64,000 nucleotides of DNA from positions 62,001 to 126,000 of the forward strand of contig NZ_NPKQ01000004.1 of NCBI RefSeq assembly GCF_008329525.1. The letters are read 5' to 3'. Both the position numbers and the translations under genes were made by a program. This DNA comes from Tardiphaga sp. P9-11 (GTDB lineage: Bacteria > Pseudomonadota > Alphaproteobacteria > Rhizobiales > Xanthobacteraceae). How positions within the stretch are numbered: the first letter of the stretch is position 1; every line of letters starts with the position of its first letter. Below are positions 10,086 to 16,879 of this stretch, piece after piece. The notes under the pieces are model-generated. The model saw nothing but the letters and a program-made list of their open reading frames with translations. It was not told where the DNA came from and ran no database searches.

Positions 10086-10802
10086 ATGGCGGCCCGAATG
10101 TTCGATACGATTATCCTCCTTACGGGTCCCGCTGAGCACTCGGTCTTTACAACGTTGCTCCGTGGTCACAATCCCGACCTGACCGTGCTGCCTGTTTTCA
10201 CCGCCGAAGATCTGGCTGCGATCGAGCCAGACTGGCTGCGCCGTGCGCGATTAATCTCGTTCACCACCGGTGTGATTGTTCCGGGCGCGATTCTCGATCA
10301 GCTCGGCTTTGGTGCCTACAATTTCCATCCCGGCCCGCCGCAATATCCCGGCCGGGCTCCGGCGCAGTTTGCGCTTTACGATCACGCGACCGACTTCGGC
10401 TGTACGGTCCATCGCATGATTGCACGCGTCGATGCCGGACCGATCGTGGATGCTGAGGCGTTCCCAATTCCAGCTGACATCAGTGGCGCCGGTCTGGAAG
10501 AGCTCGCTTATACGAGGCTTGTGCAAACGTTCTGGCGCATGGCGCGCGTACTCGCGACGCAGCCGGAGCCGCTGATCGAGCGTGCGTTGCGCTGGGGTAG
10601 CAAGCGCCATGCACGCAAGGCCTATGAACAGATCTGCGATGTCCCGGTGACCATCGCAAGGGACGAACTCGCGCATGGCGTCAAAGTCCTCGGCGCCGAT
10701 CATTTCGGTATCGTGCCAACAATCGGTCTGCACGGTTTTCAGTTTCGGGTGGTCGTCCCCGAAACTGAAAGCGCTGCCACGAACGAAGCAGCCGAAGCCT
10801 AG
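10086..10802 (+). CDS. Formyltransferase-fold protein of unknown substrate
   Basis: A 238-residue protein with the N-terminal catalytic domain of formyltransferases such as methionyl-tRNA formyltransferase and GART. The signature is present: YNFHPGPPQYPGRAP supplies the catalytic Asn and His, and VDAGPIVD the Asp, so an active N10-formyl-THF or related transferase is plausible. The tRNA-binding C-terminal domain of Fmt is absent and the protein is shorter than Fmt, so it is not the housekeeping enzyme. I chose the ATG at 10086 (AGAAGG four bases upstream); a TTG at 10065 and an ATG at 10098 are alternatives. Its 3' end overlaps the convergent small gene by four bases. Confidence 0.75.
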   Translation: MAARMFDTIILLTGPAEHSVFTTLLRGHNPDLTVLPVFTAEDLAAIEPDWLRRARLISFTTGVIVPGAILDQLGFGAYNFHPGPPQYPGRAPAQFALYDHATDFGCTVHRMIARVDAGPIVDAEAFPIPADISGAGLEELAYTRLVQTFWRMARVLATQPEPLIERALRWGSKRHARKAYEQICDVPVTIARDELAHGVKVLGADHFGIVPTIGLHGFQFRVVVPETESAATNEAAEA

Positions 10803-11047
10803 CGGTTGGCCGCGAAGCTCTGGTGCTGCGCGGGCGGGGGTGCTGACGTGAGTCTGCCGGCTGCCTTACCGTTGAATTCATAAAGCAGGAAACTCAGCAC
10901 CACGAGCAATCCAACGCCAATGATGGCCTTGGTCGGCTTGTGGTCGTGTTCTTCGCCGCAATCCGGATGGTAGGCGCCGTCATTCGATACCAAATCGCTG
11001 CCGGCGAGTTCAGGCTGCGACGGCCAGTTATGCAAGTTCTGGTTCAT
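10799..11047 (-). CDS. Small single-span membrane protein
   Basis: An 82-residue protein with a polar N-terminus containing HPDCGEEHDHKP, one membrane helix near 41-58 (AIIGVGLLVVLSFLLYEF) and a short Pro/Gln-rich tail. The His/Cys/Asp cluster before the helix might bind metal, but this is only a compositional remark. AAGGAG precedes the ATG. It lies head-to-head with the KaiC-like operon and may share a stress-promoter arrangement with it. No family recognised. Confidence 0.65.
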   Translation of the reverse strand: MNQNLHNWPSQPELAGSDLVSNDGAYHPDCGEEHDHKPTKAIIGVGLLVVLSFLLYEFNGKAAGRLTSAPPPAQHQSFAANR

Positions 11048-11080
11048 TTCCGTTCTCCTTGCCTGATGTCGTCAGACACC

Positions 11081-11105
11081 AATGGCGCGCAAAGGCCGAC
11101 GTTCC
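11081..11105 (-). promoter_or_regulatory. Weak candidate sigma-EcfG promoter, divergent from that of the KaiC operon
   Basis: On the minus strand GGAAC (11105-11101), a 16-base spacer and CATT (11084-11081): one mismatch from the CGTT of the EcfG consensus. It would serve the small membrane protein gene whose ATG is at 11047. The support is modest. Confidence 0.3.
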
Positions 11106-11178
11106 GTTTAATGGCCGCCATTTGCGGGATGCTGCTTGCATATAAGAAGGCATCTCAAAATATTTCCGAAAAAGCCTT

Positions 11179-11203
11179 GGAACCCATTCCTCGCTGGCGC
11201 GTT
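11179..11203 (+). promoter_or_regulatory. Sigma-EcfG (general stress response) promoter of the KaiC-like operon
   Basis: GGAAC at 11179-11183, a 16-base spacer, then CGTT at 11200-11203: an exact match to the consensus GGAAC-N16/17-CGTT used by the alphaproteobacterial stress sigma factor. The start codon of the downstream gene is 45 bases further on. Confidence 0.7.
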
Positions 11204-11248
11204 TCAGCATCCCACCGTCGTGGGTGATACCTTAGGGGCAGTTTCGGA

Positions 11249-12736
11249 ATGAGTGGTGATAACGGCCGGTTTGCAACCGGCGTACCGGGTCTCGATGCGA
11301 TCCTGGGCGGAGGCGTTTTCGACGGCGGCATCTACATCATTCAGGGCGCCCCAGGCGCCGGAAAAACGATTCTGGGCAACCAGATCTGTTTTGCCCAGGC
11401 TGCCCAGGGCCGCAACGCGCTTTACATCACGCTGCTCGCGGAGAGCCATGCTCGCATGATCGGGCATATGCGGCGGATGACCTTCTTCGATGAAGCTGCA
11501 ATCCCGGATCGTATGTCCTATGTCGGCGCCTTCAAGACGCTGGAAGACGACGGGCTGCGCGGCCTGCTCGACGTGGTCCGCCGCGAGGTTCGCACCCGCA
11601 AGGCCAGCATCCTCGTGCTCGATGGCCTCATCACCGTGCACGAGAAGGCGCGCTCCGAGCTTGAGCTGAAGAAGTTCATCCACGAACTTCAGACCCAGGC
11701 TGCCTTCAGCAACTGCACCATGTTCCTGCTGACCAGCGCGTTCGATGCAGATGCGCATCCGCCTGAGCATACGATGGTGGATGGTCTGATCGAGTTGCAG
11801 TCGTCGCTGCACGGCCGCCGCGCCGAGCGCTCGCTGCAGGTTCATAAATTGCGTGGCAGCTGGTTCATGGGCGGCAAACACGCCTATCGGATCACCGAAA
11901 ACGGCCACGCCATCTATCCACGGATTGAGGCGCTGTTGGAGACGCCGAGTGTCTGGGACAGCGCCGACGGTCCGATGGTCTCCGTCGGCATCGGCGGCGT
12001 CGACAAGATGCTCGGCGGCGGTGTCGATACGCATTCGGTGACGGTGGTGCTCGGCCCGTCGGGCTCAGGAAAGACCACGGCTGGTCTTCAGTTCCTCACC
12101 GGCGGTCCCGCAAGTGAACCGGCGATGCTGTTCGGGTTTCACGAAAATCCGATGTCGTTGCGCATCAAGGCCGACAGCCTCAAGCTGCCGCTGAAATCGC
12201 GGGGCGACAAAGTCACGCTGATGTGGCGTCCGCAGACAGAAGCCGTGCTCGACGAGGTCGCAACCGAGCTGCTTTCGACCATCAGGCAGAACGGCGTGCG
12301 CCGTCTGGTGATCGATGGCATCGAAGGCTTCTCGAAGCTCACCGACGAAAAGGAGCGCATCGGCTCTTTTTTGTCGGCGCTGTGCAACGAGTTGCGCGCA
12401 CTCGGTGTTACCACGCTGGCGACGGCAGAAACCGATCACGCTGGCATGACACCCGGGCAGCCGCTCAAGGGGGTCAACCAGACGGGTCTCTCGGCAGTTG
12501 CCGAGAACATCATTGCGCTGCATCTCGCAGCCCTGCGCTCGGAAAACCATCGTCTGATGACCATTCTGAAATCGCGTGACCGCCGGACCGATATGCGCAT
12601 GCGCCGCTTTGAAATTCTCGATGGCGGCATCGTTCTCGATGCCAATTTCCAGAGCGCGGAGCGCATCCTCAGGGACATTTCAAGTCAAGGACCTGCACCA
12701 ACTCCATCTACGGATCTCAAGTTGACTGGAGAATAG
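11249..12736 (+). CDS. Double-domain KaiC-like RecA-fold ATPase
   Basis: A 495-residue protein with two RecA/KaiC domains in tandem. Domain 1 has Walker A GAPGAGKT (33-40) and Walker B ILVLDGL (121-127); domain 2 has GPSGSGKT (269-276) and RLVIDGI (352-358). Both ATP sites look intact. Where cyanobacterial KaiC has paired catalytic glutamates there is one Glu in each domain (TLLAESHA, GFHENPMS), and no clear Ser-Thr autophosphorylation pair near the C-terminus, so clock function should not be assumed. It belongs to the broad KaiC-like signalling ATPases of non-cyanobacteria. A stress-type promoter precedes it and a receiver-domain gene follows two bases after its stop. Confidence 0.9.
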   Translation: MSGDNGRFATGVPGLDAILGGGVFDGGIYIIQGAPGAGKTILGNQICFAQAAQGRNALYITLLAESHARMIGHMRRMTFFDEAAIPDRMSYVGAFKTLEDDGLRGLLDVVRREVRTRKASILVLDGLITVHEKARSELELKKFIHELQTQAAFSNCTMFLLTSAFDADAHPPEHTMVDGLIELQSSLHGRRAERSLQVHKLRGSWFMGGKHAYRITENGHAIYPRIEALLETPSVWDSADGPMVSVGIGGVDKMLGGGVDTHSVTVVLGPSGSGKTTAGLQFLTGGPASEPAMLFGFHENPMSLRIKADSLKLPLKSRGDKVTLMWRPQTEAVLDEVATELLSTIRQNGVRRLVIDGIEGFSKLTDEKERIGSFLSALCNELRALGVTTLATAETDHAGMTPGQPLKGVNQTGLSAVAENIIALHLAALRSENHRLMTILKSRDRRTDMRMRRFEILDGGIVLDANFQSAERILRDISSQGPAPTPSTDLKLTGE

Positions 12737-12738
12737 CG

Positions 12739-13104
12739 GTGCGAACTGTCCTGATTGTCGAGGACGAATGGGCGATCGCCGACTGGCTCGAAGTCCTGTT
12801 GAGCGAATACGCCTTCAATGTCCTCGTGGCCGGCAACGGCCGTGAGGCGCTCGACATTCTGCATCGGGACACCCCCGATCTCGTGCTTACCGATTTCATG
12901 ATGCCGTTCCTCGACGGCGCCGGCCTGATCGCAGCGATGGGGCAGGACGAACGTCTTCGCAGCATTCCGGTGGTGGTCATGACCTCGTTGCTGGAGCATG
13001 TCGTGCGCGACCGGGCAGGGCATTTCCGCGCCTATCTGCGCAAGCCGTTTCGCGAAGCCGATCTGATGAAGATCATTGGCGAGATTTTCCCGGACGAAGC
13101 CTGA
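12739..13104 (+). CDS. CheY-like single-domain response regulator coupled to the KaiC-like gene
   Basis: A 121-residue receiver domain without output domain: acidic pair in VEDE (8-10), phospho-acceptor Asp52 in LTDFMMP, Thr82 in VMTSLLE and Lys102 in LRKPFRE, so phosphorylation chemistry is intact. It starts with GTG two bases after the TAG of the KaiC-like gene, with its ribosome site (GGAGAAT) inside that gene's end: translational coupling and joint stoichiometry are likely. No histidine kinase is adjacent, so the phosphodonor is unknown. It probably works with the KaiC-like ATPase through protein contact. Confidence 0.9.
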   Translation: MRTVLIVEDEWAIADWLEVLLSEYAFNVLVAGNGREALDILHRDTPDLVLTDFMMPFLDGAGLIAAMGQDERLRSIPVVVMTSLLEHVVRDRAGHFRAYLRKPFREADLMKIIGEIFPDEA

Positions 13105-13390
13105 ACCTTTTATATCTGTCGTGCTGCACTGCACTGTCGCGCGATGCCGTTACGTCCTTGCGCCCAAGGCCTTGGCGGCGACACAACGTGACGAACACAC
13201 CGGCCGCTTTCATCACGAAGTTGCGTTCTTTGGACGCGGGGCTCCATTGCCCAGAATTGTGGTGCGCCCCGTTCAAAATCCAACATAGACTGTTTCTAAG
13301 GGAGTCGAACGACCCCAGATAATCAGGCGCGAGCAGGCTGGATTGACGCAATCCGGGCGATAGCCCGAGGCCGCAGTGGCGAGGGTGGGA

Positions 13391-16300
13391 ATGGGAATTA
13401 ATCAAGGCGCGATCAGTCTCGATCAGAAATACACCCAGGGCTCCGGCCATATCTTCCTGACCGGCATTCAGGCGCTGGTGCGGCTGCCGATGGCACAGGT
13501 CCGCAGGGACCGTGCGGCGGGTCTCAACACTGCGGCCTTCGTTACCGGCTATCGCGGTTCGCCGCTCGGCGGCTATGACCAGCAACTGACGGCGGCGCGG
13601 AAACATCTCGATCAGTACGGCGTCAAATTCCAGCCCGGCGTCAACGAAGATCTCGCGGCCACCGCGATCTGGGGCACCCAGCAGCTCAATCTGTCGCCCG
13701 GCGCCGAATATGATGGCGTTGTCGGCATCTGGTACGGCAAGGGCCCCGGCGTCGATCGTTGTGGCGACGTCTTCCGCCATGGCAATGCCGCCGGCTCGGC
13801 GAAATTCGGTGGCGTGCTGTGTCTCGCTGGCGACGATCATGGCGCCAAGTCCTCCACCGTGCCGCATCAGTCCGACCATGCCTTCATATCGGCGCTGATG
13901 CCCTATCTTTACCCGTCGTCGATCCACGAGATGATTGAGATGGGTCTGCTCGGCATTGCGATGTCGCGCTATTCCGGCTGCTGGGTCGGCATGAAGGTGA
14001 TCACCGAAACCGTGGAAACCACGGCGGAGATCAACCTCAACGACGAGATGACGCCGTTCAATATTCCCACCGATTTCGAAATGCCGGCGGATGGTCTGAA
14101 CCTGCGCTGGCCGGACGACCGCTATGTGCAGGATCGCCGCCTGCAGGACTACAAGGGCTTTGCCGCCATCGCCTTTGCCCGTGCCAACAACATCAACCGC
14201 GTCACCATGGACTCGCCGAATGCGCGCTTCGGCATCATGGCCTCCGGCAAGAGCTATGAGGACGTGCGCCAGGCGCTGCGCGAACTCGGCATCACAGAAG
14301 AGGTCGCCGCGAAAATTGGTCTGCGCCTCTACAAGATCGGCATGCCGTGGCCGCTGGAGCCGGAAGGCGTGCGCAAATTCGCAGTGGGTCTCGAGGAAAT
14401 CTTCATCGTCGAAGAGCGCCGCGAAATCGTCGAGAATCAGGTCAAGCAGGAACTGTTCAACTGGCGTGACGATGTGCGGCCACGCATCATCGGCAAGATG
14501 GATGACAAGGACCATCGCTTCCTGCCATTCGCCGAGGAGCTGAGCGTCGCCAAGGTGGCGACCTCGCTGGTGGATCGCCTGCTGGCGATGGAGATCGATC
14601 CGGATATCGCAGCACTGCTGCGCGCCAAGGCCGACTGGTTTCACGGCCGCGAAGCGTCGCAGGTCCAGAACGTGGTGCCCATCACGCGCACGCCGTATTT
14701 CTGCTCGGGCTGCCCGCACAACACCTCGACCAAGGTGCCGGAGGGCTCGCGCGCGCTGGCCGGCATCGGCTGCCATTTCATGTCGCTGTGGATGGACCGC
14801 TCCACCGAGACCTTCACCCATATGGGCGGCGAGGGCGTGCCGTGGACCGGCATCGCGCCGTTCACCAAGGAGAAGCATATCTTCGCCAATCTCGGCGACG
14901 GCACCTACTTCCATTCCGGCTCGCTGGCGATCCGCCAGTCGATCGCCTCCAAGGCCAACATCACCTACAAGATCCTCTACAACGACGCCGTCGCCATGAC
15001 CGGCGGCCAGAAGCATGACGGCGAGTTGTCGCCGCAGCAGATCACCTTCCAGCTTCATTCCGAGGGCATTCGCGAGATCTATCTCGTGTCGGAAAATCCC
15101 GACCTCTATCCGGCGAGCACCATCGCGCCGGGCACCAAGCTGGCGCATCGCGACGAACTCGACAGCGTGATGAAGGCGTGCCGCGAAGTGCCGGGCTGTT
15201 CGGCCATCGTGTTCGTGCAGACCTGCGCGGCCGAAAAGCGTCGCCGTCGCAAGAAGGGTATTCTCGAAGACCCGCAGCGCCGCGTCATCATCAATCCTGC
15301 GGTCTGCGAAGGCTGCGGCGATTGCTCGGTGCAGTCGAACTGCATTTCGGTGGAGCCGCTGGAGACCGCGCTGGGTCGCAAGCGCACCATCAACCAGTCG
15401 TCCTGCAACAAGGACTATTCATGCCTCAAGGGCTTCTGCCCATCCTTCGTCACTGTCGATGGCGGCAAGCTGAAGCGCAAGGCGCCTGTCGAACTCGGCA
15501 CCATCGGCGCGTTGCCGGAGCCGGCCACGCGGCCGTCGCTCGACAAGCCCTATAACGTTGCGGTTGGCGGTGTTGGCGGTACCGGTGTGCTGACCATCGG
15601 CGCGCTGCTCGGCATGGCCGCGCATATCGAAGGCAAGGCCTCGATGATCCTCGACATGTCAGGGTTGGCGCAGAAGGGCGGCGCGGTGCTCAGCCACGTG
15701 CGTCTCGCCAACGACACCGGCGATGTGACCTGTTCGCGCATCGTCACCGGCACGGCCGATGTCCTGATTGCAGCCGATGAAGTCGTAGCGATCGCCAAGG
15801 ACACGATCTCGCTCTGCGAGAGCTCGCGCACTTATGGCATCGTCAACACCCATCTCATTCCGATCGCGGATTTCGTGCGTAACCGCGACTTCAATTTCCA
15901 GTCCCGCAAGGTCAACAACGTGCTGGAAATGTCGCTGCGCAAGGAATCGACATTCCTCGACTTTACCAAGGCCTCCGAAGCGCTGCTTGGCGATTCCATT
16001 GCCACCAACATGATGATGATGGGATTTGCCTATCAGCAGGGACTGCTGCCGCTGCAGGCGGCGTCCATCGAGCAGGCCATCGAGCTCAACGGCGTCTCGA
16101 TCAAGATGAACATGCTGGCGTTCCAGTTGGGGCGTCTGGCGGCCGCCGATCCGGCGCGGTTGGCAGACATGCTCAAGGGTGCCGACGAGACCATCGCGCC
16201 GAAGACGCTGGACGATATGTCGCTCGATGAGATCGTCGCCCATCGCAGCGGACTGCTCACCGACTATCAGAATGGCAAGCTCGCCCAGCGCTACCAGGCA

Positions 16301-16879
16301 ATGGTCGATCTGGTCCGTGAGGCCGCGATGCGCGGTGGTTATGATGATGAACTGCCGCGTGCCGTGGCGATCAACTATGCCAAACTGCTCGCCTATAAGG
16401 ACGAATACGAGGTCGCGCGGCTCTATACCGATGGCAAGTTCGAGAAGCAGCTGCGCGATCAGTTCGAGGGCGACGTCAAGATCAACTTCAATCTCGCGCC
16501 GCCGATGCTGCCGGGTACCGATGCGTCGGGGCGTCCGAAGAAACGCGCGTTCGGCGCCTGGATGCTGCCGCTGTTTCGTATTCTGGCGAAGCTGCGCATC
16601 TTGCGCGGCACGCCGCTGGATGTGTTCGGCTACAGTGCCGACCGCAAACTGGAGCGCGACCTGATCGCCGGCTACGAGAAGGACGTTGCCACGGTGTTGA
16701 ACCTGTTGTCACCGCTGACGGTGGATACGGCCGTGCAGTTCCTCTCGCTGCCGGACAGCATCCGCGGCTACGGTCCTGTGAAGGAAGCCTCGGTCAAGGC
16801 GGCGAAAGCACGTTATGCCGAACTCGCCAAGGACCTCGCCAATCCGCCGCCGGTGCCGCGCCAGATCGCGGCGGAGTAG
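13391..16879 (+). CDS. Indolepyruvate:ferredoxin oxidoreductase-type 2-oxoacid oxidoreductase, fused alpha and gamma parts
   Basis: A 1162-residue single-chain enzyme that would convert an aryl or branched 2-oxoacid plus CoA into acyl-CoA and CO2, passing electrons to ferredoxin. Domains in order: N-terminal TPP pyrimidine domain (GYRGSPLGGYD near 53), TPP-diphosphate domain (LGDGTYFHSG near 502, then NDAVAMTGGQ), a ferredoxin-like cysteine region (CEGCGDCSVQSNC near 638, with CNKDYSCLKGFC), the gamma/catalytic domain (VGGVGGTGVL near 725), and the family's C-terminal domain. The ATG at 13391 matches the usual MGINQG start; a GTG lies five codons upstream. Aerobic alphaproteobacteria use such enzymes in Phe/Trp or phenylacetate-type catabolism; the substrate here is not shown. 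Bases 13105-13390 upstream hold no gene. Confidence 0.9.
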   Translation: MGINQGAISLDQKYTQGSGHIFLTGIQALVRLPMAQVRRDRAAGLNTAAFVTGYRGSPLGGYDQQLTAARKHLDQYGVKFQPGVNEDLAATAIWGTQQLNLSPGAEYDGVVGIWYGKGPGVDRCGDVFRHGNAAGSAKFGGVLCLAGDDHGAKSSTVPHQSDHAFISALMPYLYPSSIHEMIEMGLLGIAMSRYSGCWVGMKVITETVETTAEINLNDEMTPFNIPTDFEMPADGLNLRWPDDRYVQDRRLQDYKGFAAIAFARANNINRVTMDSPNARFGIMASGKSYEDVRQALRELGITEEVAAKIGLRLYKIGMPWPLEPEGVRKFAVGLEEIFIVEERREIVENQVKQELFNWRDDVRPRIIGKMDDKDHRFLPFAEELSVAKVATSLVDRLLAMEIDPDIAALLRAKADWFHGREASQVQNVVPITRTPYFCSGCPHNTSTKVPEGSRALAGIGCHFMSLWMDRSTETFTHMGGEGVPWTGIAPFTKEKHIFANLGDGTYFHSGSLAIRQSIASKANITYKILYNDAVAMTGGQKHDGELSPQQITFQLHSEGIREIYLVSENPDLYPASTIAPGTKLAHRDELDSVMKACREVPGCSAIVFVQTCAAEKRRRRKKGILEDPQRRVIINPAVCEGCGDCSVQSNCISVEPLETALGRKRTINQSSCNKDYSCLKGFCPSFVTVDGGKLKRKAPVELGTIGALPEPATRPSLDKPYNVAVGGVGGTGVLTIGALLGMAAHIEGKASMILDMSGLAQKGGAVLSHVRLANDTGDVTCSRIVTGTADVLIAADEVVAIAKDTISLCESSRTYGIVNTHLIPIADFVRNRDFNFQSRKVNNVLEMSLRKESTFLDFTKASEALLGDSIATNMMMMGFAYQQGLLPLQAASIEQAIELNGVSIKMNMLAFQLGRLAAADPARLADMLKGADETIAPKTLDDMSLDEIVAHRSGLLTDYQNGKLAQRYQAMVDLVREAAMRGGYDDELPRAVAINYAKLLAYKDEYEVARLYTDGKFEKQLRDQFEGDVKINFNLAPPMLPGTDASGRPKKRAFGAWMLPLFRILAKLRILRGTPLDVFGYSADRKLERDLIAGYEKDVATVLNLLSPLTVDTAVQFLSLPDSIRGYGPVKEASVKAAKARYAELAKDLANPPPVPRQIAAE

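Follow-up and report, generated by a model that had tools for sequence, protein, structure and literature searches.

What does a KaiC-like ATPase do in an alphaproteobacterium when its gene is coupled to that of a lone receiver protein and both lie behind a promoter of the general stress type? The question is raised by a locus in a 64,000-nucleotide (nt) stretch of the Tardiphaga sp. P9-11 genome (contig NZ_NPKQ01000004.1, positions 62,001 to 126,000, forward strand), referred to here as the window and used for numbering unless stated otherwise. The answer that we prefer, with a probability of roughly 0.6, is that this KaiC-receiver unit has had its input changed in evolution, such that an ancestral kinase would have been lost and an EcfG promoter gained in Nitrobacteraceae. 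The locus comprises the following elements:

11179-11203, + strand: EcfG-type promoter GGAAC-N16-CGTT, conserved (-35 box, 11179-11183; -10 box, 11200-11203)
11249-12736, + strand: gene of a KaiC-like tandem ATPase, an open reading frame (ORF) of 495 amino acids (aa), supported by Pfam, fold and substitution ratios
12739-13104, + strand: gene of a single-domain response regulator (receiver only), 121 aa, GTG start, assigned by Pfam

The KaiC-like protein matches the KaiC ATPase family over two stretches (Pfam PF06745, 200.2 bits against a cut-off of 26.6), and both of its Walker A motifs are intact (GAPGAGKT, residues 33-40; GPSGSGKT, residues 269-276). Its AlphaFold model has a mean predicted local distance difference test (pLDDT) value of 84.4 and finds KaiC structures as top fold matches in the PDB, with a template modelling (TM) score of ~0.8 at 22% identity. 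The ratio of nonsynonymous to synonymous substitution rates (dN/dS) has a median of 0.079 among 14 Tardiphaga sequences (91 of 91 pairs), and the closest named record, from the named collection, is that of T. robiniae with 98% identity. Only 2 nt separate the kaiC stop from the GTG start of the receiver gene, whose product scores 68.7 bits against Response_reg (PF00072, cut-off 30.2) and evolves with a median dN/dS of 0.086 (14 Tardiphaga sequences, 85 of 91 pairs inside the dS limits). The receiver carries the residues expected of a phosphorylatable domain, namely the acidic pair E8/D9, the phospho-acceptor D52 and K102, together with the usual T and Y switch residues. A preliminary description of this DNA had reported two KaiC-type ATP domains, a CheY-like gene starting with GTG two bases further on and GGAAC-N16-CGTT upstream of kaiC, and all three are found at the coordinates given above, the last with a spacer of 16 nt. 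In one other Tardiphaga genome the KaiC frame is broken (L025:1501-3428, L049:6001-7758), through either decay or an assembly error, and the promoter and receiver gene are intact.

The pairing of the two genes extends well beyond the genus. A family sample of 391 genomes, as well as 397 genomes of the order, 398 of the phylum and 385 of the class, was searched, the last three with a 16-member profile. KaiC of the window type is present in 16 of the 18 family-sample genomes listed under the window's genus, whereas outside the genus this sample yields one close relative (G095, 74% identity), the remaining matches being distant KaiCs with 26-31% identity. At the cut-off used, the profile finds matches in 12/397 genomes of the order, 16/398 of the phylum and 4/385 of the class; genomes with only lower-scoring matches (<320 bits; 4 of the 12 and 2 of the 16, respectively) were treated as outgroup. 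Together with the family sample and the named collection, these searches define a branch of 66 loci with 52 distinct KaiC sequences, which is split from other KaiCs with support 100/98 and has a scattered distribution that also includes beta- and gammaproteobacteria, a myxobacterium and planctomycetes. A co-directional receiver gene is observed directly downstream of kaiC at all 51 testable distinct loci (the sequence of L056 stops within KaiC), as expected from the earlier view of KaiC and receiver as one unit. This contrasts with the outgroup KaiCs in the tree, where a single receiver gene follows in none of ten rows; at several loci of other types (e.g. L029, L033 and L035) the receiver matches fall within a kinase gene. 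KaiC and receiver distances are correlated (r = 0.73, a value reached in 0 of 5000 permutations; 34 rows, near-copies removed). In addition, twelve KaiC positions are near-fixed in the branch (at least 94% of 36 rows) and rare (at most 20%) in the ten outgroup KaiCs, namely Y29, N44, G54, L62, L98, G102, G126, L161, T162, E173, E227 and W326, and a predicted contact with the receiver should be sought here first. We also note that two planctomycete loci (L062:5394-5918, L063:5457-5918) carry an extra receiver gene directly upstream of KaiC besides the downstream one.

The receivers themselves vary little where phosphorylation is concerned: all 51 have the second acidic Asp, the phospho-Asp and the Lys, and those displayed have at most 23 residues beyond the receiver domain and no output domain. 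Such competence for phosphorylation without an output, and the absence of a matching kinase gene within 1.5 kb, could also be accommodated if the receiver were a phosphate sink or hub of the stress network, as LovR and MrrA/SdrG are; KaiC would then be a scaffold or ATP-level gate, and the pair would feed back on PhyR signalling instead of serving as a stress effector. We consider this unlikely. The FATGUY motif of MrrA/SdrG, PFxFATG(G/Y) in the part of PMC5964349 cited here, is missing from the branch (FATG in 0 of 51 receivers) and assignment of the receiver to that regulator type was rejected; instead the usual switch residues are in place. Moreover, KaiC keeps its receiver in beta- and gammaproteobacteria, the myxobacterium and planctomycetes, beyond the class to which PhyR is confined, the Alphaproteobacteria, according to the section of PMC8069551 used here. 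The single-domain regulators covered in that part of PMC5964349 resemble the window receiver in having one receiver domain, and lovR expression is controlled by the stress sigma factor, but they differ in the FATGUY motif and in that the partner gene of the window receiver encodes an ATPase, not a kinase.

A dedicated kinase is nonetheless part of the unit in some lineages. At 14 of the 52 branch loci a histidine kinase gene ends 0 to ~150 nt 5' of the KaiC start; among eight of these kinases compared with Pfam, HATPase_c is above cut-off in all and HisKA in six, the exceptions being L053, where HisKA falls just under the cut-off, and L061, which has none. In the tree the 18 Nitrobacteraceae rows (support 97/94) are nested successively within L056, L050 (Alsobacter soli), L141 and L140/L051/L061, all of which bear the kinase, whereas none of the 17 testable Nitrobacteraceae rows has it upstream. 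Because the successive sister lineages are kinase-bearing, the tree points to loss in the Nitrobacteraceae lineage, and one loss before the radiation of this group would be the simplest reading. The preliminary description had noted that no kinase is adjacent; this is true of the window locus, but the absence looks derived, since the nearest outside lineages have a kinase gene directly upstream. Other branch members are mostly without that kinase, and some have a different one beside the unit (PAS-HisKA upstream in L154, a hybrid upstream in L146, divergent in L148 and L149). When the own genome was searched for the missing kinase, the 42 matches formed a smooth series (171, 169, 165 bits and so on) with none outstanding; as the best of these compares with 262, 295 and 295 bits for three operon kinases outside the profile build, the genome is, by score, without a member of this kinase family. 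The 1485-aa gene behind the pair in L053 was considered as a hybrid kinase and rejected, its Pfam assignment being a Lhr-type helicase; an equally long gene lies at the same place in L054.

What, then, may have taken the place of the kinase gene? The motif GGAAC-N16-CGTT sits 70 nt 5' of the KaiC start of the window. By itself it carries no weight, because 1.79 matches with a spacer of 15-18 are expected by chance in the window, where two are found, and because the genome contains 103 sites with a spacer of 16-17 against 122 for the reversed control; a lone match was for this reason rejected as evidence. The same counts would suit a fortuitous match or a site for another sigma factor, with the pair as a housekeeping unit, and extracytoplasmic function (ECF) sigma factors other than EcfG could accept a GGAAC box. 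We regard this as highly improbable in view of the upstream alignment. The preliminary description had named beforehand a motif not conserved upstream of orthologues as a reason to abandon its promoter; the motif is exact in all 15 testable Tardiphaga loci, 14 of which have it at -68 to -70 and one, L022, at -104 (the sixteenth, L023, begins near the KaiC start), and all nine motif columns of the alignment are invariant across a diverged spacer in which none of 16 columns is invariant and two are conserved at ≥90%. Family members outside the genus have GGAAC-N16-GGTT at -220 (L024) and GGAAC-N16-TGTT at -215 (L048), in a region that is partly diverged. A sigma-70 consensus scan of 10700-13700 gave no promoter-like site.

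The regulators required for such a promoter are encoded in the same genome, where phyR, nepR and ecfG are adjacent. PhyR is matched with 366 bits (cut-off 240) and the ECF sigma factor beside nepR with 390 (PRK12540, cut-off 307), while NepR lies above its Pfam cut-off (59.6 against 25.7) and below that of NCBIfam (33.3 against 100). Together with the conserved promoter footprint, this locus supports the EcfG-type control proposed earlier, and transcription of the pair by EcfG is what the sequences would predict. The divergent region between phyR and nepR-ecfG (L064:2278-2481) itself carries GGAAC-N16 sites in both directions, with the -10 boxes CATT and CGTA. In the parts of the EcfG regulon papers cited here, GGAAC-N16-CGTT is the conventional motif in Sphingopyxis, with TGTT, CATT and GGTT also common in place of its -10 box (PMC7083833), and EcfG motifs are enriched ≤100 bp from the start codon in Sphingomonas (PMC6599016); both regulons are like the window in combining this motif with a variable -10 box, and the word "circadian" is absent from the main texts of the two papers.

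At kinase-bearing loci the motif is largely missing. Among six kinase genes (L050, L051, L053, L055, L056 and L061), with one mismatch allowed, only L055 has a site upstream (GTAAC-N16-CGTT), and none of nine kinase-bearing loci counted as alphaproteobacterial (including L051, named only as Proteobacteria) has one directly 5' of KaiC, which is expected since the kinase gene occupies that place. Among seven kinase-less alphaproteobacterial branch loci outside the family the motif is found in three, one of them exact, in the gap behind a TspO gene. The site in L126 is found where a divergent kinase gene begins, and might drive that gene.

The own genome contains another KaiC operon, distant from the first:

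contig 12, 1071733-1075283 (L102:5734-9284): second KaiC and hybrid kinase operon

This second KaiC (498 aa, 29% identical to the first) overlaps by 4 nt with the gene of a 685-aa hybrid kinase with PAS-HisKA-HATPase-receiver architecture, and GGAAC-N16-GGTT lies 45 nt 5' of its start. We compared 20 upstream stretches of distant KaiCs, which may not all be orthologous: one from each of 12 other Tardiphaga genomes, excluding the third KaiC that G107 and G222 each have, and eight chosen from other genera of the family. GGAAC-N16-NGTT precedes the gene in all 12 Tardiphaga stretches and at seven of the eight other loci, three of these seven sites being AGTT, the weakest form, at -143 to -168. 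In a separate set of other-type family KaiC loci, sharing four genomes with the 20, the motif is present in 8 of 13. A class-wide search with the second KaiC gave GGAAC-N16/17-NGTT within 300 nt upstream in 10 of 24 loci, compared with two on the other strand and none in the coding control; without three Nitrobacteraceae loci this leaves 7 of 21, six of them with exact CGTT, and 14 without a site. The remaining 174,514 nt of these class-wide loci contain one site, and KaiC loci outside the class have the motif in 0 of 21. These counts, like the element before the second KaiC, argue against a fortuitous match in the window. An EcfG-like promoter is therefore not special to the window pair; by motif, one also precedes the second KaiC operon and part of the other KaiC operons in the Alphaproteobacteria. 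We incline, by a little, to the view that at least two far-apart KaiC branches have repeatedly come under EcfG, with stress-driven synthesis replacing the ancestral dedicated kinase as the input in the Tardiphaga lineage. Such repeated placement under the stress sigma factor would mean that KaiC recurs in the general stress regulon.

Could the unit still keep time? Cyanobacterial KaiC shares with the window protein its fold and tandem ATPase architecture, but the residues and partners of the clock are wanting. The window KaiC scores far under the NCBIfam equivalog cut-offs for clock KaiC (TIGR02655, 95.6 against 546.25 bits; NF006799, 165.6 against 408), has one Glu per site where clock KaiC has an adjacent catalytic pair (A64-E65 and H298-E299), and has S415-A416 in place of Ser431-Thr432. 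KaiB (PF07689) has no match in the own genome, which is rated 100% complete; the same search matched 6 of 14 control genomes, one of them over the cut-off, and KaiA was not searched for. Clock function is unlikely because of the single Glu per site, S415-A416 and the missing KaiB, and each of these points, as well as the conclusion, bears out the preliminary description, which had seen a single Glu, no phosphosite pair and no KaiB, and had judged the protein probably not a clock.

A simpler timer is conceivable, namely a stress hourglass in which induced KaiC would slowly hydrolyse ATP or autophosphorylate S415, the receiver would read or reset this state, and timing would proceed without KaiA or KaiB. 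The first catalytic Glu plays a role in the autokinase activity of KaiC. At the first Glu position of the second domain, 48 of the 52 branch members have His, Tyr or Phe, which makes such activity doubtful; at the Thr432 equivalent, 26 have Ala, 10 have Ser and one has Thr. We thus find an hourglass very unlikely, even though 45 of the 52 members have Ser at the Ser431 equivalent, both domains have an invariant Walker A Lys, and hourglass KaiCs lacking KaiA and KaiB have been proposed for another KaiC group in the passages of PMC3164672 cited here.

We therefore return to the change of input. The ancestral form would have been the tail of a kinase-KaiC-receiver operon, as in the nearest relatives outside the family, in which the kinase presumably phosphorylated the receiver and the receiver set how active the KaiC ring was. 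Loss of the kinase gene would have occurred in Nitrobacteraceae, where an EcfG promoter would now stand before kaiC, so that, once PhyR frees EcfG from NepR, the amount of the pair would be set by the general stress response. The receiver, with its intact phosphorylation site, would probably be charged by a kinase encoded elsewhere. Because the pairing is constant, we infer that the receiver may dock on KaiC, and the simplest mechanism would have its phosphorylation state set the ATPase activity or the state of the ring, with a presumed output downstream of the pair.

Several observations weigh against this reading. The motif shows no genome-wide enrichment, as noted above, and the antisense strand of the upstream regions compared also yields a loose form at 3 of 17 family loci. 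The unit is absent from two of the 18 genomes listed under the genus. Seven changes have to be placed on the tree to explain where the kinase occurs, so the kinase appears to have been gained or lost several times, and four of the seven kinase-less alphaproteobacterial loci outside the family have no EcfG motif, which indicates that kinase loss does not require promoter gain. EcfG control, contact between the two proteins and the effect of the receiver on KaiC are predictions from sequence.

Around the promoter and the KaiC start, sequence inspection and alignment reveal further elements:

11157-11166, no strand assigned: A/T-rich near-palindrome (GAAATATTTC in several relatives), just 5' of the -35 box
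11212-11227, no strand assigned: inverted repeat in the 5' untranslated region, arms 11212-11216 and 11223-11227
11234-11239, + strand: Shine-Dalgarno-like AGGGGC of the KaiC gene, kept in most aligned rows

The near-palindrome is present in many, not all, Tardiphaga loci. The inverted repeat, TCACC-N6-GGTGA (CCACC in the window), lies just 3' of the predicted transcription start, and few non-coding columns are as well conserved as those of its left arm. Paired cells make up 90.7%; the covariation score is, however, reached by 122 of 500 shuffles and is not significant, so we claim no RNA structure, and the repeat is perhaps an operator. Upstream of the pair, a divergent 82-aa ORF with a hydrophobic stretch (10799-11047, - strand) has no Pfam or NCBIfam match, and ORFs of similar size lie at the same place in some relatives. 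Downstream, a gene of the pyruvate/indolepyruvate ferredoxin oxidoreductase type (POR, DUF6537) occupies 13376-16879 on the + strand, and several relatives have a long gene of like size there. No terminator-like site was found on the + strand between the receiver gene and this gene; its co-transcription with the pair is doubtful because of a gap of ~270 nt.

The order of kaiC followed by a receiver gene has been in print since 2011. In the passages cited here, the Ramlibacter tataouinensis genome paper (PMC3164672) describes a third ('black') KaiC group, called diverse, in which kaiC is often followed by a receiver gene and nearly all members have one or no conserved phosphorylation site. The window branch is like this group in its downstream receiver gene, but the receiver is constant here and is joined in Nitrobacteraceae by a stress promoter, and those passages name no stress sigma factor. 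In Methylorubrum (Methylobacterium) extorquens AM1, according to the cited section of PMC8069551, KaiC1 and KaiC2 control ultraviolet and temperature resistance from the clusters kaiC1-kaiB2-kaiB1-kaiR1 and kaiC2-kaiR2. This system, too, consists of alphaproteobacterial KaiC proteins, but one of its clusters includes KaiB; the section gives no EcfG control. KaiC of Legionella and Pseudomonas has been connected with stress resistance, as cited in the part of PMC11832031 used here. No paper linking KaiC to EcfG was found in the open-access literature searched, and the parts of PMC8069551, PMC10359499 and PMC12573494 covered do not place kaiC under PhyR or EcfG. The wider point, that KaiC operons of different branches recurrently lie behind promoters of the general stress type in Alphaproteobacteria, as judged by motif, thus seems new. 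The role of KaiC outside the cyanobacteria is largely open, and a conserved putative stress promoter before two distant KaiC operons provides a concrete and testable lead, while the constant receiver partner, in lineages with and without a dedicated kinase, offers a natural series in which to study how a receiver may control the KaiC ring.
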